A stretch of DNA of 64,000 nt, from NCBI GenBank assembly GCA_950295325.1, contig OX485803.1, positions 5,518,001 through 5,582,000 of the forward strand. Reading direction: 5' to 3'. Source of the stretch: Polytrichum commune. Its lineage: Eukaryota > Streptophyta > Polytrichopsida > Polytrichales > Polytrichaceae. Below, piece by piece: positions 20,709 to 57,700 of the stretch (the stretch's first letter is position 1; the number at the start of each line of letters is the position of its first letter). The notes under the pieces were generated by a model that saw only the letters and a program-made list of their open reading frames with translations, was not told the DNA's origin and did no database searches. A program made the position numbers and the translations under genes.

Positions 20709-21643
20709 AAGATGCGGATAGGCAACTATCTATGATAACACTCTTGCTAACTTTGATCAAGTTTGGGCTGGTAAAGAACTCCTTCACCACATAGATAATA
20801 CTAGGAGATTAATATGAAACATCAGAGTGTCCAATGTGGACTTAGTTGATAATGTTTAGTTGATTTACTCTAGAGTAAAGGCACTCATAAGTATAATCAC
20901 TTAAGAGATTTTGCGCTAGATTTGGAGAAGTATAAAGTGGTGCAAATTTTTCCTATGTAGGAAGATAGAAATAAAAATGATTGCAATTTTTTTTTGGTAA
21001 TTTTTTTTATTAAATTGGAATTATTATGAACTTTTGAAGCCAAAAGAAGAGTGATATTAAGAAGGTTGATATTGCAAAGTTTAAAATGTATCTTAGTTTC
21101 TTACATGAATTTATAGTTATCCAATCCACATTCATCCGAATACATTCATAGAGGGACGAACTTATGGGCGAGAAAGATTAGCAAACCATGAGATTTGGTC
21201 AAGGGCATAGCTAAGAAACGTTGTTCCATTTGTCTCAAAAAGAAGGAGAAATGAAAGTGGGCAGAAACTACTGAGAATGCCCTCTATGTTCAGAGCCAAT
21301 AGGGATCCTACACGTCAGCTTATCCCCCCACTTCATGGACATTACGTGGCATGGATGGTCTTGTATGTGATACTTTTGCTTTTAACATGGAATGCCTCAA
21401 AAGTATGGCCTTCCCTTATGAAATGTTTACTCTTTAGCTTTGGACGGGGACATTTCAGAGGCCAACTCCGAAGTAACGAACCCTCCGCTGCAAACCCTCG
21501 TTCAAGGGGTCTCGGAATTGCTACGCCGGGAGGCATCATCACTAGCACCATCGAAGCGTTCGGAATTCTGAATTCGGAACTTAGAATCGACTTCTCATCG
21601 CAAGGCCTGAGCGGAGGAGCAGTCACAGAAAACGAGAAGGACG
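20709..21643. other. Upstream region of the RTF2 gene
   Basis: No separate gene is supported. Base composition changes near 21260, where GC rises, which probably marks the promoter and 5' leader of RTF2. The open frame at 21277-21663 overlaps the RTF2 start in another frame and shows no domain. Confidence 0.4.
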
Positions 21644-23319
21644 ATGCAGATATTTGTGAATAAGGGGACTGGTAGCACACAGGCGGTGCCCGTGTTGCGA
21701 CATCACACGATCGGGGATGTGAAGAGAATGGTGATGCCACAGGCGGATATATGGGAAGATGTTTATCTCTCATTCGCAGGTCGGCCGTTGGCAGATGCGT
21801 CGAAGCTCGTGGATTGTGGTATACAGGGTTTCAGCACATTAGGGTTAGGGTTTAGAGTCCGCGGAGGTGGTGGAGATGGAGGTGCGACAGGTGCGGAGTC
21901 GAGAGATTGCTACTTGAACATGTACGCTGTGAAGAAACCTGACAAAGTTGATCCTAATGAAATTAAGCTTGCGAAATTCACAAACTGTGCTCTATCTTCG
22001 GAGCCTTTGAAGCCACCATGCGTTATAGACTTCCTTGGCAACATATACAACAAAGAAGCAGTTGTGAGTGCACTCTTAACAAAGTCGTTGCCGAAGAAAT
22101 TGGGGTACATCAAAGGACTGAAGGACTTGATTGCGGTGGAATTCACTCCGATACCTGGGGTTGTTGCTGATGGAGTTACCTCTGGTAGCAAGTTCCAGTG
22201 TCCAGTCACGGGGCAGGAAGTCAATGGGAAGTTCAAGTTCTATGCGTTGCGGAAGTGTGGTCATGTCTTGAGTGCCCGGGCCTTGAAGGAAGTGTCTTCT
22301 TCAACTTGTGCAGTCTGCTATACGCCCTTCACCGATGTTGATAAGTTTCCACTCAATGGAACTGAAGAAGAGGTATGTTGTTGCAATCATTCCATAAAGT
22401 TATTAGGGTTTTTTTACACTACAATCGCTCGCAGGGTTAAATTTTTGGTATATGCAAGGTAGAAAGGTCTTGATCAACTACCAATATAAACACTTCCGTG
22501 CTCAAAATGGTTTAATATTCTCCTAAAACGAACATTTCTAGGATACTCTCAAGGATTAATATGACAGCTCATTGGTTGTGATGGCCAAAAAGTCAGTGGA
22601 CAACACCCGCTCAACACTCACCGCTTTAGTCATCTTTGTGACCATTTAAGAGGATCGCAGATATGTTTTTTGAAAGTTCGTCACAAAATGACGTTTAGTC
22701 ACCTTAATCTCATTCTTATGGCATTGGATTTGTACACACCATGCTGTGATGTAGACAAGCCTATTACGGTTACTTCCAGGAGGTTTAGCCCCTTCTGGCG
22801 GTATGCAACAAATCCAGGAACAAAAACCCAGTTCATTAGCAAATTACTTGTCTTTTATCTGGAATTGATGGTGTTGCACCTTTGTCATTCACTAACAATA
22901 AGTTTTTTTCCAATTCTTGCCAGGTACTTATGTTAAGGGAGAGAATGGAGACTGAAAAAGAATCTATCCGAGATAAGAAGGCAAAGAAATCAAAGAACAG
23001 GAATGTAGATAGCGGCGAGCAAATTATAGCAGGCACACCTACTTTGCTAACTGATGAGAACAGAAGATTGGAAAAGTCTATGTTGCAAAATGGTAAGAGA
23101 AAAGGCGATGTTTCAAGGACAGTGGAGGTAGCAGAAGTGGCAGCTGTTGTGCGACCGAAAGGATCGGACTTGGTGATGGTGACTAAGAAGTACAAGGCAT
23201 CCGATAAACTGCCTGACAATGCAACGAAGTCAGTCTATGCTTCAATATTTACATCTTCAAGCAAAGGGACTTTCAAAGAGACATACTCTTGTCGGTCCCT
23301 TCCTCTCGGAAGAAACTGA
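21644..23319 (+). CDS. RTF2: RTF2 (replication termination factor 2) with ubiquitin-like N terminus, 2 exons
   Basis: Exons 21644-22372 and 22924-23319 join in phase 0 across a GT-AG intron to give 374 codons plus stop. Residues 1-75 form a ubiquitin-like domain beginning MQIFVNK and ending FRVRGGGG, a fusion known in plant RTF2. The RTF2 domain follows: LNMYAVKKPDKVDPNE, then the RING-like part with FQCPVTGQEVNG, RKCGHVLSARALKE and STCAVCYTPF, continuing across the exon joint into VLMLRERME. The C terminus has the highly conserved ATKSVYASIFTSSSKG and ends FKETYSCRSLPLGRN. RTF2 acts in the nucleus at stalled replication forks; in plants it is also linked to pre-mRNA splicing. Length and both ends match the family, so the model is probably complete. 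Confidence 0.95.
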
Positions 23320-32130: not shown

Positions 32131-33266
32131 TTGATCTCACCAAGACTCAGAGACAGAAATGGAAGGCAGCATACGAAGCACAATTTGACGACATCATCGC
32201 TGCGGAATCCGAATTACAACACAACTGGGGGTCGATACCAGCAAGAGAAAAACTTAGCAATGCACAAGCTGCATTGCACGAAGTTAGACAACAAAAATTT
32301 CAACATCAGGAGAGTGCTATTCTATCCAAGTGGGCAAGAGTAGGAGACAGGTGTACAAAGGAGTTTTTCGAATACCATGCAGGTTTGAAGAGGCCAACCC
32401 CAATAACCCAAATGCTGGATGGAGAGAACCGACTCACTACACAAACAGAAATCGAACAACATATTCTAGCCTTCTATGAACATCTTTATTCCAAAGACGA
32501 ACAGGTGGAAAGCAATGAGGCAGCCCGAGATGATTGTTTCAGCTTCATAAGACGTTAAGTCACAGAGGAGCAAAACTAGGAACTTCTGTGACCACTTTTG
32601 TTAGAGGAAGTCACTAATGCTATTATACAACAACTACCGGCAGGTAAAGCACCAGGGGCAGATACTATTCCAATAGAATTTTATCAGGAACTCTGGGAGG
32701 ACATAGAATTTGACATGTTCAACTTTGTGGAGGAAGCAATTTCACAAGCACATATAACGGAGGAGCTGAATACAAGTAAGATTGCACTACTGCCCAAAAC
32801 CGCAGACATGCTTAGAATCCAGAACTTCCGACCCATATCTCTCCTCAATACCCTCTACAAAGTCGTAGCCAAAGTTTATGCTAATAGGATGAAACCTCTC
32901 CTTCACCATTGGATCCTGCCCTCCCAAACAAGATTTGTCCCAATAGATGCATCCTAGACAACATTTTCCTGGCATTCGAAGCAATAGAATGGACCCAAGA
33001 AAACAACCAACCTTTATGCATGCTTCTACTAGACTTCGAAAAGGCCTATGATCGAGTGAACTGGACATTCCTCAAACAAACTATGGAGAGAATGAGTTTC
33101 CAAGACCAATGGATAAGACAGGTGATGTCCCTCAATTTCAACGCCTCAGCTTCTATTCTGGTCAACGGCCAATCATCCAAAACATTCAAATTACAACGTT
33201 CGGTTAGGCAAGGTTGTCCATTGGCACCATACCTGTTCATGCTCACAGTTGATGTGCTTGGCCAAA
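32131..33266 (+). pseudogene. L1 ORF2, reverse transcriptase N-terminal half
   Basis: The frame reads KWARVGDRCTKEFFEYH, then LPAGKAPGADTIPIEFYQ, FRPISLLNTLYKVVAKVYAN, LLLDFEKAYDRVNWTFLKQ (first catalytic Asp) and VRQGCPLAPYLFML, ending DVLGQ at the insertion point. These are RT motifs 0-5 of plant L1 elements. Three in-frame stops lie at about 32556-32595 and a frame change lies near 32940. The stops are of the kind produced by C-to-T change (CAG to TAG, CGA to TGA). Confidence 0.85.
33255..33266. repeat. 12-bp target duplication of the 2A LINE, left copy
   Basis: tgcttggccaaa is identical to 41108-41119. Joining the flanks at this word restores the L1 frame as DVLGQMLQHPQCGVQG, continuing to the second RT catalytic motif MFADDT. 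Confidence 0.95.
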
Positions 33267-33402
33267 CGTAGCGATAAAACCAACCAATACCAAAGTATAT
33301 ATATATACTAAAACACTCTACAAAATAATAAACAAAATAATATACAAAGTATTACTAAATACTATAACAATATACATCAAAACAAATAAAAAACACAATA
33401 CA

Positions 33403-34686
33403 ATGACAAAAATCAACACTAATACACTCCTATACCATAAGCAACTCCATACACCTTATTTCTTAAACATAAAGGAAACGCACAAGGGTAAACATATAAC
33501 ATACCATAAACATCTTCTCATAAAACTAAACAAATATCACAACCACAACACAAAACAAACGGTCTCGGCCTACCGGCCTCGACAAATAAAGAAAACAAAA
33601 AACACAGCCCACCACCAGACCTATAACATAATTAAGCAAAATACATACAAAAACTACAAAAACACACGATATCACCTAAATCAAAATACGGAAAGAATAA
33701 CTAATAGAATAAAGAAAAGATACCTAAACAAAACCCCCCAAAAACAACCAATAACACTAAACCATATTCATAACGATCTTCTGCTAGCACAATGTGGCGA
33801 CATTGAAACCAACCCCGGCCCAATGCCCAATATATTACAAAACCACCCAACGGCACACAAAAGACGACATACAACCTACTTTATACCTAGTACAATAAAG
33901 TTACAACCGGAATACCAACACCTAGCCACCAACTTCAAACCATTATTCCAAAACACACATCCCCTACATACACAAGTTACTTCCTCACTCCCACACCTAC
34001 ACAACTATATACAGCAGAACAATAGCCAACCGCCCCCCAGACTAATATACGCACTAATTGTAACAATTAGCCCCTCTACTAAAGAATGTGACACATATCT
34101 ACAACAACAACCAACGTCTAACTGGACCGCACAAATACTAGAAAAAATGGCAAATCTACCTAACCCGCCGGAAAGACATGTTGAAACCCCACACCCATAC
34201 ACACAGTTCCTATATACACACCAAGACAAAATAACCCCCTCAAATACAATACATCATACACTATATGACCATATACACCGCCACTCCGTACCACCCAACC
34301 TCCAGGACCTACAACACACATTCTCATACCTACCCCAACAACTACTTATAGAAGCACTAAGATGCACAGAACCTATCACGGAATATACACACCCTACCCC
34401 CCCGATAATACATAACCAAATACCGCCACCCAGACCATCAACACCCACAAGCTTTGAAACATACATCATAACATGGAATGCTGCGTCACTCAACACAGCA
34501 ATGCCATGCCTCCATGAACTAATAACACACTCCCAGTACCCCCCAACAGCCATAACCATACAAAGAAACCAAACTTACTGCCACCAAATCCACCAAATAC
34601 ATACAAAACATCTTCCCCCAATACAAACTCTTCTTCAACAATACACACAATATCACACGTACCATACGTCAAAGAATGACACATAG
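33403..34686 (+). CDS. 2A-LINE polyprotein, N-terminal part: basic leader, 2A, start of AP endonuclease
   Basis: Starts with ATG at 33403. Residues 1-124 are rich in Lys, His, Asn, Thr and Tyr, with no domain I know, possibly an RNA-binding leader protein. Residues 126-140 are the 2A motif LLLAQCGDIETNPGP. After it comes a Pro/His/Thr/Gln-rich spacer of about 210 residues. From residue about 351 the AP endonuclease begins (YIITWNAASLNTAM). A one-base insertion in the A run near 34560 shifts the frame. The +1 frame continues with ETKLT, the conserved E-T-K-L of AP endonucleases, then RNYRGGLLTLIHNKH and LLINI. The frame upstream of the shift runs on to a stop at 34684-34686. Confidence 0.8.
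   Translation: MTKINTNTLLYHKQLHTPYFLNIKETHKGKHITYHKHLLIKLNKYHNHNTKQTVSAYRPRQIKKTKNTAHHQTYNIIKQNTYKNYKNTRYHLNQNTERITNRIKKRYLNKTPQKQPITLNHIHNDLLLAQCGDIETNPGPMPNILQNHPTAHKRRHTTYFIPSTIKLQPEYQHLATNFKPLFQNTHPLHTQVTSSLPHLHNYIQQNNSQPPPRLIYALIVTISPSTKECDTYLQQQPTSNWTAQILEKMANLPNPPERHVETPHPYTQFLYTHQDKITPSNTIHHTLYDHIHRHSVPPNLQDLQHTFSYLPQQLLIEALRCTEPITEYTHPTPPIIHNQIPPPRPSTPTSFETYIITWNAASLNTAMPCLHELITHSQYPPTAITIQRNQTYCHQIHQIHTKHLPPIQTLLQQYTQYHTYHTSKNDT
33778..33822 (+). other. 2A-like ribosome-skipping signal
   Basis: Encodes LLLAQCGDIETNPGP, matching the 2A consensus D-(V/I)-E-x-N-P-G-P with the usual upstream leucines and a Gly before the Asp. In viruses and in trypanosome L1Tc and several animal LINEs, this motif makes the ribosome skip the final Gly-Pro bond. 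Here it would release a 139-residue leader from the enzyme part, with the downstream product starting at Pro140 (codon 33820-33822). Confidence 0.9.
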
Positions 34687-36946
34687 AAACTACAGAGGTG
34701 GTCTTCTCACCCTCATCCATAATAAACATGCGTTCCCTGGCAACCTGTCAAAAATACCCACCCCGGTAAACATTTCACCATTTCTCCAAATAATCCGTAT
34801 AGCTAACCAACCCCTCCATTCATGGCTACTAATTAATATATAAATGCCATCCCACGACGAAGATCTACCCCTCATTCCCAACATACAAGTCACCATAACC
34901 GAACAAATCAATGCCCACCCTAACCACGCTTATATAATATGTGGCGACTTTAATCGAGATATAGCACTCATAGGAAGACAAAACGACCAACAAACCACAC
35001 CACCACAATCAGAAGATTATCAATGGAGGTCATTTATGGACAACCTAGAACTTACATACATTAAAACAAACTCCACATTTTCAAGACAAGGAGGAAATAA
35101 CTACACGCATAATAGCCTTATAGATGGCTTCTTTATAAAAACCCCTGACAACAATCTATATAAGTCAACCACAAACCTAGATATAAACCTCAACTCTGAC
35201 CACGTACCCGTACAATTATATATCCCGCCTAATACACTGATTGCTAGAATACCATCATCCAAACCGGACCCGCCACCAAGAATACTCAACCCCATACCAA
35301 AGGCAAATCTAGAAAATTTCCACGTACAGTTCTTCGAGGCCAACTCAATACAAATAAACGAACTCACACTAATGCTTGAAACTAATACAACCCTAACAAC
35401 AGAACAATGGCAAGTGACATGCGTAGCATTCGAAACCCTTATCAATAACATCTCTAATACAGTCTTGGAAACATGCAGCGCACCACAAATCCCAAACTTA
35501 CCAAACCACATTGCCAAACAAGGAGGCTACCTCCCAAAAAAACTCCAAAAATAATGGAAAAAACACCTTGCCACCTATCATCTCATCCGGAAAATAATAT
35601 ACATTACAAAAATTAATCCGAACTGGAGAGACCACCCCATCATTCAACAAATGGACAACCACCCGCATACTACTCTACCAAAACCCCCAATCCACCCTCT
35701 CCCACATAATACATGGATAGAAGATCTAGCTAACACAACAAAAATAGCCAAAAACGACGCTCGAAAAATTACAACGGAATTCTCGTTAAAACAGATTAAA
35801 AAAGCCATATCTAAATATCAACAGTTATACGATAAAAATCCCAAAAAAATAAACAAAAATGTCTTCAAAGAAAACGAATCACCCCCACTAGATTGCATAA
35901 TAGATAAATATAACAACATCCTCACCAACCCAGATGACATCGCCAAAGAAATCTACACTCAACAATCTATCATTAGCAAACCTACAGTTCTCACATGTCA
36001 CTTTCAACCGGACCACCCACAATACTGCACATGTGGAGTCAAGCAATACCCATGGCACGATCTAGATGGATACACTATCGAAAAAAGAGGTGAACTAAAT
36101 ATCCCCTTACACACATACCTAGATCAAGAAACATACGACACATGTCTCCGAAACCTAGCAAATGGAAAAATCCCAGGGCCAGACAAAATCCCTAATGCTA
36201 TACTAAAATCCATGCCCTCACGCTTCCACACACTACTATTCCTCTTCTTTACACATTGCTATAAACAAAAACGCATCCCAAAATCCTGAAAAACGAGTCT
36301 TACCATACTTTTGTATAAGAAAGGTAACCCACACTACCTCAACAATCACAGACCAATAGCTCTTGCCAACACAATATACAAATTCTTTACCAGCACACTC
36401 ACTAGCATTCTCGCCACATACGGTGAAAGACATCAAATTCTACATGACAATCAAGAAGGATTCAGGGCTGAGAGATGTACATCAAGACAACTACAAACCC
36501 TTATATCAGCCCTTGAAGATGCCAGACTCACAAACCAAAATATCTACATACTATATATAGACTTCAAAAATGCCTTTGGCTCAATTGATCACGCTAGACT
36601 ACTGGCCATAATGAAAGACCTTGGGTATCTACAAGATGCCGTAGCACTGATAGGAAACATTTACTCGCAATCTACCACCACATATATCGGAGAAAACTTT
36701 GGCAAAACACAACCAATCCCCATACAAAGAGGAACCATACAAGGCGATACCCTAAGTCCATACTTATTTATTATCTTCCTAGAACCCCTATTACGATGGC
36801 TAGAAAAGGGGAACAATGGATATACCTTCAAAACCTCTACCACTAAGTTAAACTCCGCAGCATATGCCGACGATTTAGCCGCCCTATCCAACAAAGTAAC
36901 ATCCTTACAATTACAACTAAACAAACCAGATAAGTTTTGTGAATAG
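34565..36946 (+). pseudogene. 2A-LINE polyprotein, AP endonuclease and reverse transcriptase
   Basis: One frame runs from the shift near 34560 through 36946, with in-frame stops at 34841, 35552 and 36287 and a further one at 36944. The endonuclease shows IICGDFNRDIALIG and, near its end, LNSDHVPVQLYIP, both catalytic motifs of AP-type LINE nucleases. RT begins with NGKIPGPDKIPNAILK and has NNHRPIALANTIYKF, YILYIDFKNAFGSIDHARL (first Asp), IQRGTIQGDTLSPYLFIIF and AAYADDLAAL (paired Asp). A Cys/His cluster CTCGVKQYPWH precedes the RT. Two of the stops sit where Trp is expected (PKS-stop-KTS, FCE-stop-AGMD), as TGG to TGA or TAG change would give. Confidence 0.85.
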
Positions 36947-36952
36947 GCAGGA

Positions 36953-39900
36953 ATGGACCTAAGTATACCCAAATGCGCAATCACTGGATGCCCCAATAAA
37001 TCAAAACTAAACTCACAAGCCTTTAAAACCCACTTACAAGACGCCAACATCAATTTTAGACACCAATCAATACCCATACTTAGTCAACACGAACCATATG
37101 TATACCTTGGAATCAATCTAGTCCCCTCATTACAATGGAAAACACAAATGCACATCACCACGGCTAAACTAACCAAACAAAGTAAGCTCTTAATAACATG
37201 TCCAGCTACCATGAAACAAAAAATAAAAATGGTAGATACAGTCATAAGAACTGGTATTGCTTATAGCTTTTATGCTGATCCATACTCCCTCCCGGCCATT
37301 AAAAAATTAGACAAGAAAATCATCGCCCTACACAAAACCATATGTGGTCTACCGAAATGTATGTCAAACGCCGTCACACAACTACCACACGACATGTTCG
37401 GGACAGAAGCTTTCTCATTAAAAAACGCATACATAACATGTATAGGAGAACAACTCATAAATGCCCTAAACGATAAAAGAAGGCTCGGCAAAATATATAA
37501 CGGATTAATACAACATATACTTGCCAAACACGGAGGAGCCCAAAACCTAACACGTCTCTCACCCCATGATTGCATGAGATCACCAATTACAAGATCTTTA
37601 TTCTTATTGAAGAAAACAAGTGGAGCCCACCTCAAAAGTACACTAGGAAACTTCCTCCTCACCCCTACGCCACTAGAAACACAATGGATGCTACAAGCAA
37701 GAAACACCCCAACACTCACTCCAAAATTATCATTAAAATACCTCCACAAACTAATATTGCATAACATATTCGAAATAAAACATATCACATGTCCTAACGG
37801 AACACACCTAATGGATAATGACGAATTCAAAAACCACTACAATAAACCCACTAAAATAGAGAAAACTGCACTTGAATTTGCTAGAAAACTATTCTGCAAA
37901 CCAACATGTCTTACCCAATGCACACGACAATGCCTAATACATACGACACCAAACACCCTGAAAGATGAATATAAAATATTAGACCTTAACACACTCACAA
38001 ACCCCCAAACACATCACACCCCTATACCACTTACAATAAGCGTAGAATACCCGAAACCACCCCCTCACATACTTAATGACCCAACACACTACCCGATATA
38101 TAAAATAAAGAATGACAAACCATGCACATACACAGATAAGTTCAAAATCAAGAAAAAATACACATCCTACCTTTGTCAATGGACACTCCCCAATGAAACA
38201 TCCTATGACAAATGGCTACCCCAAAAAGAGTTGTTCCCATGGAACAACCAAAACAATATAAACCACAATATTTCACTACTAACACAATATTACACCCAAA
38301 AACAACACCAACACTTTACCAATATCCTCAACATAAACTTCAATCAAGAGCAAAGAAGGGACACCAGATATATTCCCCCACCTCAGACCATACCCTTATG
38401 TCACATACACATCCACGAATGTAACCCAGAGGATGATATTGCATGCACACAATATACTATTCAAACCCAATATGACAATGCACACATTTATGACAACACT
38501 GGACGCCACATAATTACCATCCCAAAACCAAGACTAAAGTGGCTGTGGGACCAATACCACACATCACTAAACAAACCCCATAATCTAGAGCCCCCCACTC
38601 AATCATTTGAAACAGAAATAACATGGTTATACCAAAGATATAAATACAAAACCCCCAAAAACGACCCCCTTAAATTTTCTCAATACACACTCCCAAATGC
38701 CATCCTCGAAAACCTCATAAACACATTCCAAATAACACATTCATATTTCTCATCACCAGTCACATGCCCCACCACACTTAGACAATTCCACTCCCCATTC
38801 GCTAGAGATGTAATATTTGGATCAATTGGAAAAGCATTCCAGCATAAATGGCATGGAAATGGATACGCACATCCACATACGAACACCGAGACGCAACAAG
38901 CCCTCCATTGGGCCCGCCTAGCAGCTGAAAACGACTCCAATTCTATCACAATACTGGTCATGCCAGACGAAAATTGGTACCACAATCCTAACTCCCAAAA
39001 TGGACCCTTTCCAGATTCCCATGTCATCACACACTTCAAAGCCGACACCATAACATACGAAGAACCAACAATTCCCCTAGAACTCAGAAAAGAACCTAGA
39101 ACAGAAAATCACGTTATACAAATAATATGCATACACCACAAGAACACACCCATAGGAACAGAGACCTTTACCCAACAAATGAAAGATATTGCCAACACAC
39201 TACAAATCCCCGAAATGGTCTGTCAAATTGCCCCACCAACGCTACCAGACACACCAGTAAACCGCAATAAAAAATGGGCCAAACTCACATACCCACCCCC
39301 ACACATCCCGCCAATCATCCAAATACCATCTAACCTATGGAATAACAACCTAGTACAATGCCTACCGCTTAAATACCCGCCTCAATTTTGCTATTACACA
39401 GACGGGTCATTCAAACCACCAAAACAGATAAACAATGGACAATGGAGACGAGAGAAAGCCGGATATGGCATATATAACCCTTTCAAAAACCTAAAAATCG
39501 CAGAAAGGCTACCAGGACTACAAAATATTCTCCGTGCAGAAATGATGGCCATACACCACACCCTACAACTCCTCACCACAACATACCGAAACGAACCAGC
39601 ACACATATTCACAGACTGTCTAAACATACTATATCTTCTCAACACCCAAATCAAACACCCCACCAGTCATAATAGCCATCCGGACAAAATAATCCTAGAA
39701 AGTATGCTTAAAATGTTAATATCCCGTACACAAATAACCACACTCCACAAAATCAAGGCCCATACAAACATAGGGGGTAATGACCAAGCGGATACACTAG
39801 CCAAACAAGGATGTGAACTAGACCATAGGGATGCCACAGCACCATATGAACATGCACACCCCACACCATACTATCTACAAAAAGATTGGTGGCACTCCAT

Positions 39901-40576
39901 GCAAGAAACACCTGACAAGGGTCCCATTAGGCACCTCAGCAAATATATCCTCAAACACGATAATGAACATAATCTAGCCACAATAGCAAACCAAACGCAT
40001 CAATTACACAAATGGCTGGAAAATGACGACATAGACAAAATACTATCAAATGATTTCTGGACGAATCCTAACATCACAGATAAACAAAAAACATGTTTAA
40101 TCAAATTCCGAACAGGACAATATATGGGTCATGCCCGAAAACAACTCTTTTTTGGAATAGAAGCCTTCCCATCGAGAACATGCCCCATATGCAATTCGAC
40201 AAATGCCGATACATGGCTACATGTACTACTTAAATGCAAACAACAACACATCCATGCACTCATAACAAAAAGGCACAACAAAGCGGTATGGGAGATACGA
40301 AAACTCATTGTCTCAAATAGAACATCAAGACACTACACATTAATGAATGCAGGAACACATAATGAACAACCCCAAGAAAATATAGTTCCACCATGGTTAC
40401 TCCCATGTACATGTGATTCCCAAAGATGTCACTGTAATGCCATGCTCAAACCTGACATACTATGCATCATAGGCCATCCATATAACAACCCCCCCCAGAA
40501 ACCCCCACACCAGACGTTACCGTACAGTGTATCGAATTCACATACTGCAACGATAGATTCGCCACTGAAACCTTAA
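36953..40576 (+). CDS. 2A-LINE polyprotein, C-terminal enzyme part (chromodomain-like, PCIF1-like, RNase H, CCHC)
   Basis: An uninterrupted frame of 1207 codons. The first 350 residues are the RT thumb and linker. Next, IYKIKNDKP then YTSYLCQWTLPNETSYDKWL and PQKEL resemble a chromodomain (aromatic cage, YLV+W, W.P...L). Then YFSSPVTC, RQFHSPFARDVIFGSIGKAF, ETQQALHWARLA and SITILVMPDENW match the order of blocks in the PCIF1 methyltransferase fold. The NPPF catalytic block is AHPH here, so it is probably not an active methylase. RNase H is complete: YYTDGSF, RAEMMAIH, IFTDCLN and GNDQADTLA give D-E-D-D. The end has the CCHC finger CPICNSTNADTWLHVLLKC. A C-run slip near 40485-40500 moves the frame just inside the nuclease. 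Confidence 0.8.
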   Translation: MDLSIPKCAITGCPNKSKLNSQAFKTHLQDANINFRHQSIPILSQHEPYVYLGINLVPSLQWKTQMHITTAKLTKQSKLLITCPATMKQKIKMVDTVIRTGIAYSFYADPYSLPAIKKLDKKIIALHKTICGLPKCMSNAVTQLPHDMFGTEAFSLKNAYITCIGEQLINALNDKRRLGKIYNGLIQHILAKHGGAQNLTRLSPHDCMRSPITRSLFLLKKTSGAHLKSTLGNFLLTPTPLETQWMLQARNTPTLTPKLSLKYLHKLILHNIFEIKHITCPNGTHLMDNDEFKNHYNKPTKIEKTALEFARKLFCKPTCLTQCTRQCLIHTTPNTLKDEYKILDLNTLTNPQTHHTPIPLTISVEYPKPPPHILNDPTHYPIYKIKNDKPCTYTDKFKIKKKYTSYLCQWTLPNETSYDKWLPQKELFPWNNQNNINHNISLLTQYYTQKQHQHFTNILNINFNQEQRRDTRYIPPPQTIPLCHIHIHECNPEDDIACTQYTIQTQYDNAHIYDNTGRHIITIPKPRLKWLWDQYHTSLNKPHNLEPPTQSFETEITWLYQRYKYKTPKNDPLKFSQYTLPNAILENLINTFQITHSYFSSPVTCPTTLRQFHSPFARDVIFGSIGKAFQHKWHGNGYAHPHTNTETQQALHWARLAAENDSNSITILVMPDENWYHNPNSQNGPFPDSHVITHFKADTITYEEPTIPLELRKEPRTENHVIQIICIHHKNTPIGTETFTQQMKDIANTLQIPEMVCQIAPPTLPDTPVNRNKKWAKLTYPPPHIPPIIQIPSNLWNNNLVQCLPLKYPPQFCYYTDGSFKPPKQINNGQWRREKAGYGIYNPFKNLKIAERLPGLQNILRAEMMAIHHTLQLLTTTYRNEPAHIFTDCLNILYLLNTQIKHPTSHNSHPDKIILESMLKMLISRTQITTLHKIKAHTNIGGNDQADTLAKQGCELDHRDATAPYEHAHPTPYYLQKDWWHSMQETPDKGPIRHLSKYILKHDNEHNLATIANQTHQLHKWLENDDIDKILSNDFWTNPNITDKQKTCLIKFRTGQYMGHARKQLFFGIEAFPSRTCPICNSTNADTWLHVLLKCKQQHIHALITKRHNKAVWEIRKLIVSNRTSRHYTLMNAGTHNEQPQENIVPPWLLPCTCDSQRCHCNAMLKPDILCIIGHPYNNPPQKPPHQTLPYSVSNSHTATIDSPLKP

Positions 40577-40854
40577 ACAGGAAAATCACGAAATATCAAC
40601 CACTCATAAACAACATCGCAGCAAAGGGATGGAAAGTAGCCCCACTCATGGTACTAGCCGCGGGGGCAAGAGGCACAACATACATCCCATCAATGAAAAA
40701 CCTGGAAAAAACATTCACACTCCCCATCACGAAAATCAAAAACACGTTTAAACAAATAAACACAATTGCCACACAATACGCACACTCCATACTTGTACAC
40801 AAACGAAGAATAGATAACCGACAAACCATTACTGATCTTCAAGACCCCCCATAA
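40446..40854 (+). pseudogene. 2A-LINE PD-(D/E)xK restriction-like endonuclease end
   Basis: In the upstream frame LKPDILCIIG provides the PD element. After a frame change in the C-rich tract at 40485-40510, the other frame gives VQCIEFTYCNDRFA (acidic residue), LNRKITKYQPL (K..KY) and WKVAPLMVLAAGARGTTYIP, ending LQDPP at a TAA (40852-40854). PD, then E, then K..KY following a CCHC finger is the layout of the restriction-like nuclease in R2-group and Dualen LINEs. The match is by motif order only. Confidence 0.6.
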
Positions 40855-41107
40855 TTAAACCTCCCCACTTAAAGCAAACCCCTCCCTAATATCCAAATAC
40901 CCAAATACCTAAATAAGTCCCATATGCAGGTTACAAGTTACCGAAAATTAACAATGATTACTAACTATAGTGTCTACGTCCTGAAAGGGGCGAAGTAGTT
41001 TTACATCTAAAGCCAATGTCGTAAGACATGGCCTAGGATGTTCTACGAACAGACACTTCATTCACTCCGGCCTTAACAGAGACTGGAGTTCTTCTTCTTC
41101 TTCTTCT
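40855..41107 (+). other. 3' leader and (ttc)n tail of the 2A LINE
   Basis: 253 bp ending in about five ttc repeats at 41092-41107, directly against the right target duplication. Simple-repeat tails instead of poly(A) are typical of several non-L1 LINE groups and support this as the true 3' end. Confidence 0.85.
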
Positions 41108-41119
41108 TGCTTGGCCAAA
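41108..41119. repeat. 12-bp target duplication of the 2A LINE, right copy
   Basis: tgcttggccaaa, identical to 33255-33266; the L1 frame resumes directly after it. Confidence 0.95.
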
Positions 41120-49975: not shown

Positions 49976-51725
49976 CTGTTTGTTCCGGCACAAACTGTCA
50001 GAACTTATATAGGTACTATTCTGTGTTGACTATTTGGCAGCTGGTGCACCACACCAGAGCTTCCTTGGTAACGTATGTGGCCCTATTGTGGGCACTTGCA
50101 ACTCCACAGTTAATTTTACTGACAGTTGGATTGAATGAAATCGGGATTGTCTCATCTGGTCATCTGGTTAGCTATTGCGATGAGTCACATAGATTGCCAT
50201 TTCAAGTTTCAAAACCAGACTTGAGACGCATAAGTTACAGGAGGTTAAAGTGAGGATTCGCTTTTTTTTTAAACGATCGCATAGGCCCTTCCATTCCAAT
50301 CATGTTAACAATTGAATCTAGAATGGTTTAATTGAACCTACAATTTGACCTATACCTTGAGGACGTAGTCTAATCTCATTGGAACCCTTGTCTTTTTGTC
50401 CATTTTAATGTATTTTGAGCGGTATTTGTCCATATATACCACTTGAATATAGGTGTCCGGCTATGAGAGTGATCACATAAGGTCCACAGACCTTGAATGT
50501 AATAATTTATGCATCTCTGGAGGTCTATTCGTCCTAGTATGAGTTTATTGGATCATATAGTATTCGTTGCAGAGTTGGGTGTCACATTGCAAGGTTAAAA
50601 TCAAGGTTACGGGCAATTCTATATTAGTGAATCTTAAACGGGCCCTACTATAGACAATTTTGGAGGTTTGGGGTTGGTCGCGAGGGCATCGATGTATGAA
50701 TTGTTGCTAGAGATAGATAATCAGAGAACATCTTTTGTTGCTGGAACTTTGGAACTATCACACCCGATTTTGCATCTTTGAAAGGTGCAAGTTTTCCCTT
50801 ACTATTGTATCGTGGTCGAATTTTTCAGGGTTAATATACAGGTCAATTCAAAATGTGGACTGTCTGCGATGGAATAGGTCAAAGTCGAGTTTTTCCTTAA
50901 GCAATTTGAACCCATCCTAGTGACAGATATTCAATAAAGAAAAATCTCGTAAAATGACGATGGTGCTCCGCTTTTTGGCTACTTGTCGACAGGAATTGAC
51001 AATGCTTGGTTCAGGCTTCATGTAGCCTGTGGACTCTTGTAATCGTGATACTTTTCATGTTTCTCTGAATGTCTGTTATGAAGCGTGAAGTTTGGGTCCA
51101 ATTGTCAATATTAACACGCAGCGTTGCCTTTCGAACTGTGCACCTGGTTAGACAATTAGGACAAATTTACACATATTTGAAGTGGTGGAATTCCATTATG
51201 GTGGTAATTTTTACGAAGTGAGGCCTGTACTACTTTTTAGAGCACATTGGATTCTTCGTTTATGAGCGTTTCTTCTGCCCTCAAGTATGTCCTCTTATTC
51301 TAGTCTTGTATAAGGAGAAGAATTCAGCTCTGGGGTGTGGTTGAATCAATGTGCTCTCCAATTTGTAACCCTGGTTTTTTGGGGAGACCTCAGAGGTGGA
51401 GGAGCCTATGAACTTTTTCCTATACTGACTTTTACCTGTGCATCTAGGGGCAGTGCGGAGGGACATCCTGATAAGAATATTGCAAAGTATTTTCGAAGAT
51501 CGTTTACTTTTCACTACAATTTCTGGAAACCTGGAGTGCTTGGCCCGTTGATTCCATTCATCACATGACTATATGTTTTGTGTAAGATCAAGACGAGCAT
51601 GACCAATTTTTCTTTTGTGTTAGTAGCATTGCGAAGCTGTGGCTCAGTGGCTTGGAAATGTTCTCCAGAAATTCTGTAGTGCAACTTTATGGTCATCTCA
51701 ATATTGAAGATAAGATCTGAGAAGG
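49976..51725. other. Upstream region of the SPD1-like gene
   Basis: No separate gene is supported. The open frames at 50023-50253 and 51281-51792 carry no domain. The promoter and 5' leader of the downstream gene are expected here. Confidence 0.4.
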
Positions 51726-54700
51726 ATGGAGTCTGTTCTTGCAACGAATTTGTCGACTTCGAGGGCGTCTTATGCGTCCAAAAGTTGCTCAATTGGCTCA
51801 GGTCCTATTCTGTTGTACTCTAGGGATGCAATTTGTAGGACATTTCGCCCTCGGAGAGTATATGCGTCCCATCGCTTGCAGCGATCATCACCTAGCCAGA
51901 GATTTTCATCTACTACAGTATGTTTTCGGGGTCTGCATTTTCAGAAGACCTTCAAGTTGGCAGTATTCCATTCCAATCCCGAGAGGAGACGAGCTCATTC
52001 TTGTAAAGCCAGTGTAACGAATTCGCGTAATTTAGCTGTGGATCCTCAACCCTCAGGATTTAGGCCTGATCCTGATAGTTTAAACTCTTTTGATACTGTT
52101 CCGTTCTCGAACAATTCCGAAGACTCTGCAGTCCAGGAGGGGAATGAGTCTGCCGCGGAGATCAGTGATGAGCTTTGGAAATTGCTGGTGCTCGTTCCTG
52201 AGCACATCGGAGAGAAGCTGGTGTCACATCCTGAGATTCAAGGTTTGGTGGAAATTGTGCTGGACTTAGGGCGCCGTCCTTTGGCCCGCTTTCCATCTGG
52301 TGATTGGTTCATATCAGAGACTAAGGTTACTGAGCAGGATCTTCAACATGCTATATCCATGGTAAATATCAATCTGTTTGTATTCTTCTACCTAATTTCT
52401 GGTTTCACACATGTTCAAAGTCGCCATTTGGAAACTAATTTCTGGGGGTCACAGATGTTCAAAGTCGCCATGTGGAAACGGAGTTAGGTATAATTGTTCA
52501 TTTCCAACTCTGGTTATAGAGGAATTTTGGCCTTGACATGTGTCCGACCTAATTCTACTCTGGTCAGAGTTGTCCATGTAATATTACTGTCTTTTACTAG
52601 TGTTCAAATCATAGCATTTTTGTAAGGACGTTTCTCTATATACTAGCTTCAATAATAATCCAAGTATCAAGGTCCTTGATTTCATGCATGATTACCAAAC
52701 ATAGTATAGTGGCATGCTCTCTTTAGTTGTCACTCATCGTTGAACAAATCCTTCTCTCGTTTACCACGATTCAACTTCAAGACCTTGCCAAAAGAATCTC
52801 ACTGAGTGTATACTCTCCAAGATGCATATCCAGGGAGAACACTCACTAAACCACTTAAGAATGCTGTGATGAATGATCAGACGGACTCTTTTTTTGTTTC
52901 TTGGGGCATTTCTCCATTCTAACGCTGCAAGCTTGGACAGGTAGGAGACTTTGGAGAGGATAACCGAGCGGGAATCGATCGCACCTTGCATCGTATAAGT
53001 GCAATGCGAACACGATCAGGTCGAGTTGTGGGGCTCACATGTAGGGTCGGCCGTGCCATATCTGGCAGTGCAGAAATGGTTCGGGATCTGGTGGGAAGCG
53101 GTGGCTCATTGTTGCTCATGGGCCCTCCTGGTGTTGGGAAAACTACCGCAATCAGGTGTGTTTAACCAACTTAACATCAAACTTGTCCTTTTTTATATAA
53201 CTTGCACAGCAGTTTGCAATTCAGGGCCACATCAAATTATGGCTATCAATGGCTGTGACCATGAAATGGGAGGATCCTTGAAACTCGTCTGAAGGCCGTA
53301 CCAAGGAGACTTGAAACTCATTTTTGTGTTGCCACGGGCCTTTTAAGTGTAATGTAATGTCATACATGACCTGGCTCTCAACTGAATGCTGTTTCATATC
53401 CATCCTACTTACATGGTCTCTTCAAGACAATGATTTGTAAGAAATCAAGGGTTGTGAGATTTTGAAGTGTCATAGTCTCACAATTTTGTGGTAGACCCAG
53501 GTCAAAGAGGTGGGCTTGATGCAAAATTTGGCAGACCATGAAATATTACCTATTGCGTGTCATGTAGGACTATATGTAGGTTTTTCCATTTATCCAAACT
53601 TCCTTGGTCCCTTGGACCCTCAAGCTCTAGTGCGAAGCGAAGTGGGACGGTCTTGTCATTTTCCACCAATGAGAGATTTAGATTTCAATGGTCACGGGCC
53701 ATCAAGTTCCAGTGTAAAGTGCCTTTCTGATTATAGTCAAGTTACTTATCGTCTTGCTTGGTTTCTCATTCTTTCCCAAGATGCACCCTACACATCCTGG
53801 ATAGGAGTCAGTACTGATGATAATATGCAAAGATTCTTCAGCTGCCATACTTATTAGTTATACTGAATGTCTTGCATTGCCCACTAGGAACAGTGGACCT
53901 CAACCAATCACGAGTGCACATGAGATGTATCACATTTTCAAAGCATAAGCTTTTGTATTGGTCTTTCTTGGTAAAAGTAGAATCCGGATTTCACAGATTC
54001 ATTGGACTTCATGCAGGGAAGTTGCACGGATGTTGGCTGATGAGTATGAGAAGAGGGTGGTCATAGTGGACACATCAAATGAAATAGCTGGTGACGGTGA
54101 TATTCCACATGCAGGCATTGGTATGGCTCGACGTATGCAAGTTCCTAAAGTCGATCTTCAACACAAGGTTAGCTTTGTCACCATGTTCTCTCATTCCAGT
54201 TGTCTTTTCAGGTTGTGGTGATCATGTCTTTAATGCTCATATCCCGTGGGTGCACACATCACATGATAAGAATAATTGTTGCAGATAATGATTGAAGCAG
54301 TGGAGAACCACATGCCTCAAGTTATTGTGATTGATGAGATTGGGACTGAGCTAGAGGCTTTGGCTGCGGGGACGATCGCCCAACGAGGTGTGCAATTAGT
54401 AGGCACTGCACATGGCATGACTGTGGAGAATTTGATCAAGAACCCATCTCTGCAGATGTTGGCTGGTGGCATTCAGGTATGCAGTTGCTATAAAAAATTG
54501 GTATGTAGATGCATGGGGTGGTAACTATTTGTAGCACTTGCAGGGGTCAGCGTCTTTAGAACATGGTTTGGAGCTGCTAAGCATTTCAAAGAAGTATATT
54601 TCTGGTGCTCCTTTCGCATTAGAAGCATTTTGAAGGATATAATTTCTAAGAGATTTTTTGATTCTTCTTAGAAGTGAAAATGAATACCTCGGGTGTCTGG

Positions 54701-57700
54701 ATGGTGACCCTTGCTTTAGAAAAAGTGCTTTTAATCAGTTCCAAGAACATTATTTGAAAGTGTAAAACGACCATTTCTACTTCAGACTCAAATGGTATCA
54801 ATGGATTCTCTCAATGCCCTCTTTCTCAGCATGTTGCTCCTCTCTGTGTTGTAGCTGTGGTTTGAGTTCCCCATGCGGTTCCAGAAGCATTTAAACTGAT
54901 ATAGAAACAATTGATCTAAGATGGAGAGTTACCACCACGGAGACACATGTATGCTTAAACCTATGGTCTTATCCCGGATCCCATGGGAATTTGGGAGGTT
55001 AAGGTTGAGTTTCCATGTAGGTTGCTTGCCCACCAAATTCTGGTGGGAATGAGGACAAATTTAGATGGAATCTGGTGGGGTAGTGTTCGTTTGTGCCGAT
55101 CAAGTATTGCTATTTCAAGTGTTTAGTGGGCGTTTGGAAGTCTAGCAGCCCATGGCCACGGTCTTGCACATTCTAGTAGGCCACCAAAATGTGATTGGTT
55201 GGTTGCTTTTGTATATCTACATCATAACACCTCCAACGCACTATTATCTAGAATCTAGTGGGCGAGCAACCTACATGGAAACTCACCCTCAGCTGCCTTT
55301 TGCCTTTACCCAGAATAGGAACTCAAATGGATCATCTAGCACTTGATTCCCAGTGCATGCTACCACCGATAATCCACTCATAGTGGGGGCATCCTATTGA
55401 ACGGGATATGTTCAACTAACCATGTGGGAACCTAAGAGCTTGTCCTTTGGTGGAGATAGGTGCAAGCTGGCTTGTCCGTCCATTCAAGGTGTTCACCTTT
55501 CAAAGGAGGCAGTAATCCTTGGGGGCCCTCTAATTCTCATGATACTTTGTGGGATTATAAATAGACTTAGACTTAGACCAACTCGACGATGAAGCAACAC
55601 CATAATTCACGCCAGTGGCAACATCAGAGTCTTCCATCTTTCTTTCCTTCTTGTTTTCTTGCTACCCCTGTTTGACCCCTTTGAAGGGAGTTTTGACCAT
55701 TAGCATGAAAGAAAACATGCTCACAAGGTTGGTGGGACGGGTGTGAAATTGGAGGTGGTCAAAAGAGCGTGACACTCGGTGACGAGGAAGCACGTCGGAG
55801 GCGAGTGCAGAAGAGTGTGTTGGAGAGGCAGGGTCCACCAACCTTCACAGCTGCTTGTGAGATGGTGTCTCGAACCGAGTGGAGAGTGCACCGCAGTTTG
55901 GCTGCCACCGTGGATGCGCTGCTTGCCGGTCCCTACTTTCTTCTTCCTCTCAATTGTTTTAGCACATCCTGTCTGCACTGCCAGCTTGTGAAGTGAAGTT
56001 GAAAATGTTACAAATTCTATGCAATTACAAGCTATGATGGAAAGTTTGTTCTCTTACGAAACAGGAAAAGCGCCCCGAGTAGAGGTACGAAAGATGAATG
56101 AGAATGGACAAGTTGTGGTGGGAAATGCTACTGGTTCTGAGTACACCACCGGCTCCAGGCCTGAGTATAGCAGTCCAGGCTCTAGGTCAGGATATTCAAC
56201 TGATTGGGTCGACGAGGGCGTAAGTGAAGACACAGAGGATTTCTCAGAGGGAGAGTTTTTAGAAGGTAGAAAGGCTGGAAATTCTTGGGACCGATCAGAG
56301 GTTCCTATTCTACTCTATTTATATCAGGTACCTTTCTACACATTATGAAACTACAGGGAAGGCCTTGTAACATTCACAACACTAAACATCTGACTTAGTG
56401 TGGCCCACACTATTCATCATTGACCCACATTATCTGTCTTGCAATCACTGGGTGTCAACTCGACAGGGTGTCATATGACACTTGGGGCTACATGACAAGT
56501 CACAAAGACTACTCTGATTAACATGACTTACCAATCTTAGGGCGGCTTTATATTAGGGGCCATTTGGCGGCCGGGCCATTTGGAGTAGAGGCAACTTGGA
56601 CTTGAAGTGGCCCTTACTTTACTCTAACTCTAGCTCTACTTTACAAAGTAGCCCGTTGAGTGGCCCTTGCAATATAAAGTCCATAGGACCACTTGTAGGG
56701 TCCAAATTGGAAATTCCGCTTTAAAGTGGGCCTTCCAAATGGCCCTAGGGACTTTATATTGTAAGGGCCACTCAACGGGCCACTTTGTCTTAAATGAATT
56801 ATGCCCTTTCTTGAACTAAAGTCATAAAGTCATAAAGTCATAAATGACTATATGACGGAAGTTGGGTGAAGTGGCCCGTAGATGCGAAGTGGCTCTCCAT
56901 AAACCCTCGACCCATTTTTTTGCCGGCGGGCCACTTTTTCCCTCCAAAACGCCGCCATGTCACCCGCCACGCAAGCTTTAGGAGAAGTGGGCCGACTCTC
57001 AATATAAAGCCCTCGGGGCCATATTAGGGGCCATTTGGCCAATCTAAGCACTCTCATTGGTTGATGCCTAGGGTTTGGAAACGGCCCCTAGAAATGGCCC
57101 CTAATATAAAGCGGCCCTTAATGCCACACTAAATCAGATGTTTAGTGAAGTTTTGTTCTTTTCTAAGCTGCCATCCTGGACAGTTTGTGTTGAAGCTTAT
57201 CTGCACCTAAAATAGTGAGTTCGTATTAATGTAGTGCTGAGACTCTGTAGAGCAATTTGTTCAGGGTATTTAGAATAGGATCACTGATCTTTTAGCTCCG
57301 GTGCCCTCCTCAGGTTACCGAAGAATCACTGGAGCAAGTGATGGATGTCATGGGTCTGGAGAATACAGTCCAGATCACTGAAGACATAGGGGCAGCTGAC
57401 GCAGTTCTTGCTCTCCGGTCCAAATTAAAAACAAATTCTTGGGTTCGGGGGATGGCGAAATTTCGGCAGCTACCTATTTTTGCCATTAAGGTCAGTTATT
57501 TACTTGTTGGAATGTGTTGAGCAATTCCTCCAGCTGCTGTCTCGTATTCGCCTCTCCTGACCTTATTGTTGAATGTGGCAGGCAAACACAATGGCTCAGA
57601 TGGTGAGAGCGATGCGTGCAATTTTAAGCATGGAGTCCTTAGGAAATGACAAATTGAGAGGAGATGATGGGCGCGATGTTCAAGATGTCCGAAAATTAGA

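Follow-up and report, generated by a model that had tools for sequence, protein, structure and literature searches.

A 2A (StopGo) peptide lets the ribosome free one protein and begin the next without a stop codon. Such peptides are known mainly from animal viruses and from animal and trypanosome jumping genes. Work by Heras in 2006 is said to have located a 2A in the trypanosome L1Tc/Ingi, an APE-type non-LTR retrotransposon, and work by Odon in 2013 reportedly placed 2A signals in animal LINEs. A 2A in an APE-type LINE is a known kind of arrangement.

For viral StopGo, the accessible text of a cryo-EM study and survey (PMC12846837, 2026) covers nearly 10,000 sequences and gives no evidence for natural use by plant viruses. 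It describes L-rich upstream classes that end in (A/S/C)G before D12, biases at p15 (P, S, T and L among them), and a rare natural H at p14 and p16, with more than 95% activity in natural contexts. According to the same text, engineered StopGo functions in plants, and the available part of PMC4981915 reports that sea-urchin NLR 2A signal sequences act in Nicotiana cells. No report of a 2A in a plant LINE was among the matches listed in a literature search that did not extend to Odon 2013, Luke 2014 and Rao 2025. Here we describe an abundant APE-type LINE family of Polytrichum commune whose ORF2 likely contains a natural, working StopGo site, predicted from its sequence to free a leader from the enzyme.

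The LINE copy in the window

The window, the whole 64,000-nucleotide stretch of DNA analysed here, carries one decayed copy of this family (Table 1). The 12-bp target-site duplication, the (TTC)6T tail and a reconstruction of the empty site, in which the reverse-transcriptase (RT) frame of a host L1 runs uninterrupted over the insertion junction, indicate that the LINE is nested in an older L1; the latter bears a zf-RVT domain (Pfam). The copy has the AP endonuclease, RT, target-site duplication and 3' tail of an APE-type non-LTR retrotransposon, and no LTRs. A PDB sequence search with the APE-RT part returned three matches, to exonuclease III, at E 0.07-0.08.

Table 1. Features of the LINE copy and its insertion site, in window coordinates
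Feature	Position	Strand	Details
Left target-site duplication	33255..33266		TGCTTGGCCAAA; 12 bp
LINE copy	33267..41107	+	7,841 bases; 5'-truncated, decayed
ORF2 leader-frame remnant	33268..33798	+	2A frame stop-free; first in-frame ATG 33403
Hairpin-forming nucleotide motif	33561..33584	+	core CTCGGCCTACCGGCCTCG at 33564-33581
Predicted StopGo/2A signal	33778..33822	+	LLLAQCG + DIETNPGP = LLLAQCGDIETNPGP
AP-endonuclease domain	34459..35224	+	interrupted by stops and a frame change; PF14529 (Pfam) at 34874-35212
Reverse transcriptase	36317..36925	+	PF00078
Chromodomain-like fold	38066..38311	+	model residues 5-86
PCIF1/CAPAM-like methyltransferase fold	38573..39196	+	PF12237 at 38573-38965; model residues 204-381
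RNase H	39386..39814	+	PF00075
3' tail	41089..41107	+	(TTC)6T
Right target-site duplication	41108..41119		12 bp; pairs with the left one

The preliminary description had read a canonical 2A motif in frame with the APE-RT enzyme, at residues 126-140 and in a frame open on both sides, and all of this holds. Specifically, the residue numbers are correct when counted from the first in-frame ATG of the element, DIETNPGP conforms to the StopGo core D(V/I)ExNPGP or an active variant of it (p14 in the family is E, H, K or Q), and the stop-to-stop frame around the site extends from 33253 to 34686. The expected break lies between Gly 33817-33819 and Pro 33820-33822. The 532-nt upstream remnant has no stop in the 2A frame, compared with 11 and 22 stops in the other two frames, and is thus open beyond chance.

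The enzyme part is interrupted by stops at 34684, 34841, 35552, 36287, 36944 and 40574. It changes frame between 34587 and 34694, and the C-terminal end goes on in another frame to 40851. Because the copy is 5'-truncated and broken, the full two-product output is not possible from the window copy itself.

Downstream of the RT, the region with PF12237 has a PCIF1-type fold, and this domain is conserved in relatives. The catalytic motif of the PCIF1/CAPAM methyltransferase is of the NPPF type. This motif is absent at the aligned place in all 14 rows inspected, which read AHPH (10 rows), AHPN, AHPY, AFPT and AIPP (one row each). A search for PCIF1-like domains in LINEs gave no relevant paper among the matches listed. 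The chromodomain-like fold, modelled between the RT and the PCIF1-like domain, might guide insertion; Pfam Chromo matches weakly in one relative only, below the cut-off.

Two host genes lie elsewhere in the window. The gene at 21611-22462 encodes an Rtf2 protein whose start bears a weak resemblance to ubiquitin. The gene at 51714-57520 is split by introns, and its exons resemble what we take to be a plastid Ycf45-type P-loop ATPase. Both genes, together with the zf-RVT-bearing L1, count as plant-like features of the window.

Conservation of the motif among copies and relatives

Within the 408-Mb host genome, a 23-base back-translated motif pattern matches exactly at 54 sites, distributed across all seven large contigs (C1-C7), and at none when read backwards. 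Because an exact pattern favours copies that keep the motif, homologous copies were also sought with only the 287 residues that follow it, and at least 136 were scored. Of these, 27 are also in the exact-match list; among the other 109, 100 were read, four were dropped with a match beginning beyond residue 8, and five were left unread. An in-frame NPGP is present in 104 of the 127 homology-chosen copies (the 27 of the exact list and 77 of the 100 read), in three of them at another offset from the homology match. The prediction that related copies might lack the motif, on which the preliminary description was to be judged, is thus not borne out. Most of the 23 copies without NPGP look decayed, and some have HPGP, a reported active variant.

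The loss of NPGP tracks copy decay. With the three offset copies counted as misses, NPGP is kept in 16 of 16 copies whose frames reach 1,200 codons or more (two of which have one stop inside the matched stretch) versus 84 of 107 shorter ones. For the 123 copies whose homology match starts at residue 1, the proportions are 21/32, 39/46, 24/29, 8/8 and 8/8 for open frames of <500, 500-800, 800-1,200, 1,200-2,000 and >2,000 codons, respectively.

The codon comparison, made on 117 homology-chosen copies (1,022 non-independent pairs at 70-99.5% identity), defines the level at which the motif is conserved. In the core codons other than p14 and p15, the differences at codon positions 1, 2 and 3 are 0.020, 0.020 and 0.298. 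The corresponding values are 0.165, 0.199 and 0.299 for the twelve upstream codons (-20 to -9) and 0.107, 0.050 and 0.316 for the six codons downstream of the core. The octapeptide is thus selected as a peptide, more strongly than its neighbours, and has the strongest peptide-level constraint within its surroundings. Conservation as RNA or DNA is rejected by the third positions, at 0.298 versus 0.020 at the first and second. Directly upstream of the octapeptide, the first codon position varies but the second is conserved, giving leucine-like residues.

Residues were tallied in the 100 read copies, with the three offset copies counted at the original offset. The residue at p14 is E in 52, H in 32, K in 11 and Q in one; p15 is P in 69, T in 15, S in 11 and L in two; p16 is N in 89 and H in seven. 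Upstream, L occupies -4 in 92 copies, C occupies -2 in 73 and G occupies -1 in 95. The family context, L-L-L-L-x-(C/G/S)-G, fits the L-rich StopGo classes in the accessible text of PMC12846837, as judged by eye rather than with MEME/FIMO. Lysine at p14, which is not among the variants flagged in that text, occurs in five of the 16 long-frame copies, some of them near-identical to one another.

Relatives were also found among metagenomic and genomic predictions. NPGP is present in 32 of 76 proteins from the first search and, with a further search, in 43 of 97 close relatives. Many of the other 54 appear to begin downstream of the site, and a few relatives show degenerate forms such as NLGP or NPDP.

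The motif is flanked on either side by in-frame coding sequence and is under selection as a peptide, and by these sequence data the abundant LINE family has a very probable natural StopGo site. In the main alternative, the conserved peptide is made but does something else, for instance serves as a pause, a targeting signal or a binding motif, and skipping in the host is slight or absent. The E, H and K found at p14 make that position more variable than in viral 2As, and skipping in the host is itself a prediction. Nevertheless, tested StopGo sites show a matching pattern of conserved positions and substitutions (H at p14, H at p16, a free p15, and an L-rich context with G at its end), and we regard this alternative as unlikely.

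The leader, ORF1 and a predicted route of translation

The motif had been described as lying at the N terminus, behind a basic leader. Both statements apply to a truncation remnant only; the site is internal to ORF2 in open copies. Specifically, five open copies, picked from the homology list for long frames, have stop-free leaders of 578, 576, 277, 277 and 315 codons; over the same stretch the other frames have 19-41 stops. Over 900 nt, two pairs among them show 99% and 100% identity, and the five copies therefore amount to three sequences. The 125 residues before the window's 2A are rejected as the real leader, since the window copy is 5'-truncated and the leaders of open copies are far longer.

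The open leader frame is also seen in a larger set of 46 copies, comprising 40 chosen by exact motif, the five chosen for long frames and the window copy. Over 300 nt upstream of the 2A, these copies have 46 stops in the 2A frame versus 283 and 293 in the other two. The 2A frame is stop-free over this stretch in 28 of the 46 copies, and either other frame in none. As a protein, the leader is weakly constrained among copies chosen by exact motif, and many copies have no in-frame ATG in the leader stretch read. A hydrophobic leader start is found in one own-genome copy and resembles that of 10 of the 39 relatives' leaders of at least 60 residues.

Some leaders (L009, P0061, P0023 and P0048) contain degenerate second 2As, e.g. 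KDTETNLGP and GDMEPNPSP. By eye, some also contain stretches resembling duplicated post-2A or endonuclease pieces, as if they had grown by internal duplication.

The leader stretch includes a second conserved element. The CTCGGCCTACCGGCCTCG motif is near-invariant about 200-280 nt 5' of the 2A in many copies, is present in 36 of the 46 copies and is sometimes repeated further up. Because it is found in all three frames relative to the 2A, and because relatives read it as two peptides (ARPTGLA and ASAYRPRH), this hairpin motif seems to be conserved as RNA or DNA. One outer pair of the hairpin is GC in 27, AT in three, TA in two and unpaired in nine of 41 pattern-picked instances. Searches of Rfam were negative around the site up to E 10 and, at gathering scores, in the window and seven copies.

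An ORF1 lies upstream of ORF2 in all three open copies whose upstream DNA was read, one per sequence. Its open frames span 725-766 codons within the stretch read, with identities of 40% and 27% among copies over 437-459 residues (two comparisons), and Pfam gave no family above the cut-off. ORF1 terminates inside the beginning of the ORF2 frame. One of the three copies has its ORF2 ATG within ATGACTAG, five nt ahead of the ORF1 stop, an overlap that fits the AUGn(2)UGA-type spacing given for termination-reinitiation in the accessible part of a review (PMC5972666). In the other two, the first in-frame ATG lies 107 and 125 nt beyond the ORF1 stop, and the leader that begins at the former ATG is the one with the hydrophobic start.

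The resulting layout of ORF2 is a weakly conserved, stop-free leader, the octapeptide, and an endonuclease-RT-chromo-like-PCIF1-like-RNase H polyprotein. In the route that we propose, ribosomes would enter ORF2, for which the ATGACTAG overlap in one of three copies suits termination-reinitiation. The leader would be translated and then released at NPG, and translation would resume from the Pro to yield the enzyme as a separate protein. More tentatively, the use of the site may be to free the enzyme from a fast-changing leader, which has a conserved hydrophobic segment at its start in part of the family and might otherwise misdirect the enzyme.

Another route would have the enzyme initiate at the Met after NPGP (NPGP-MPNIL), with the leader and its 2A being a vestige or 5' untranslated. 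Met directly follows NPGP in 94 of the 100 own-genome copies read, and several predicted metagenomic proteins start exactly there. However, the 43 NPGP-bearing relatives divide into 23 with Met at this place and 20 without, the leader frame stays stop-free, and the constraint on the octapeptide at codon positions 1 and 2 is not expected of an untranslated stretch; initiation at this Met is accordingly quite improbable. Contamination, non-host sequence or a chance match has a negligible probability and is rejected, given 54 exact sites on seven large contigs versus none reversed, the homologous copies scored, and an insertion with target-site duplication into a zf-RVT-bearing L1.

RT phylogeny and comparison with known systems

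The RT tree, with 32 mostly unnamed protein rows, recovers the family as a 100/100 group that is distinct from the 2A-bearing rows of two other groups; by RT, the family does not cluster with the remaining 2A-bearing LINE proteins found. With two long rows removed, a forced union with P0118 and P0120 is rejected at an AU p of 0.018, and one with five NPGP-bearing rows at p 0.0005; the groups tested were defined once the tree was known, and the branch leading to the family is long. One of the five rows, P0125, has NPGP without a canonical core. The parallel with L1Tc drawn in the preliminary description stands for the signal, but the RT tests reject a union of the family with the 2A-bearing LINE proteins found here. 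This separation suggests that the family gained its 2A separately from the other 2A-bearing LINE groups found.

Several distant LINE proteins (P0118, P0120, P0122, P0133, P0134 and P0135) have a 2A motif close to the N terminus, reading GDIEQNPGP, GDVESNPGP, GDIHPNPGP or GDVRPNPGP. The occurrence of GDIHPNPGP there means that DIHPNPGP is not family-specific.

A broader reading is that StopGo was acquired independently by a lineage of land-plant LINEs lying outside the 2A-bearing LINE groups, where it serves to split a long and partly membrane-directed ORF2 leader from the enzyme; we put this forward as a tentative possibility, somewhat less probable than its opposite. If true, this would be the first natural use of StopGo in a plant; lysine at p14 would count as a new natural variant, and two adjacent ORFs would give three proteins. 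It also raises the question of whether LINEs gained 2A more than once. A multi-copy transposon family with a selected site would offer a natural plant system for StopGo. Its copies amount to a natural set of core variants in native context (E, H, K and Q at p14, N and H at p16, and several residues at p15), which would allow sequence tolerance and efficiency to be measured in plants.

What appears new is the lineage, the lysine variant at p14 and an architecture that includes chromo-like and PCIF1-like domains. Like trypanosome L1Tc/Ingi and animal LINEs, the family has a DxExNPGP-type signal in frame 5' of an AP endonuclease and RT. Unlike in those elements, the site lies 277-578 codons into ORF2 in open copies, an ORF1 lies upstream in the three copies checked, and the enzyme adds the chromo-like and PCIF1-like domains. 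The family is also set apart in the RT tree from the (unnamed) 2A-bearing LINE proteins found here.

Compared with viral StopGo motifs 2 and 6, as given in the accessible text of PMC12846837, the family shares the L-rich stretch ending in (A/S/C)G before D12, a natural H at p14 and p16, and a p15 that is often P, S, T or L. It differs in that the site belongs to a plant transposon and that K, unflagged in that text, is common at p14. In the sea-urchin NLR proteins (PMC4981915, available part), a 2A likewise follows a hydrophobic N-terminal segment, so that skipping can change the destination of the downstream protein; in that host gene, the two roles of signal and 2A fall to a single short N-terminal peptide, whereas here a long leader lies between the two. 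Finally, the overlap of ORF1 stop and ORF2 start in one of three copies resembles the SART1-type coupling in the accessible part of PMC5972666, while the other two copies, with their ATG 107 and 125 nt past the ORF1 stop, depart from it.
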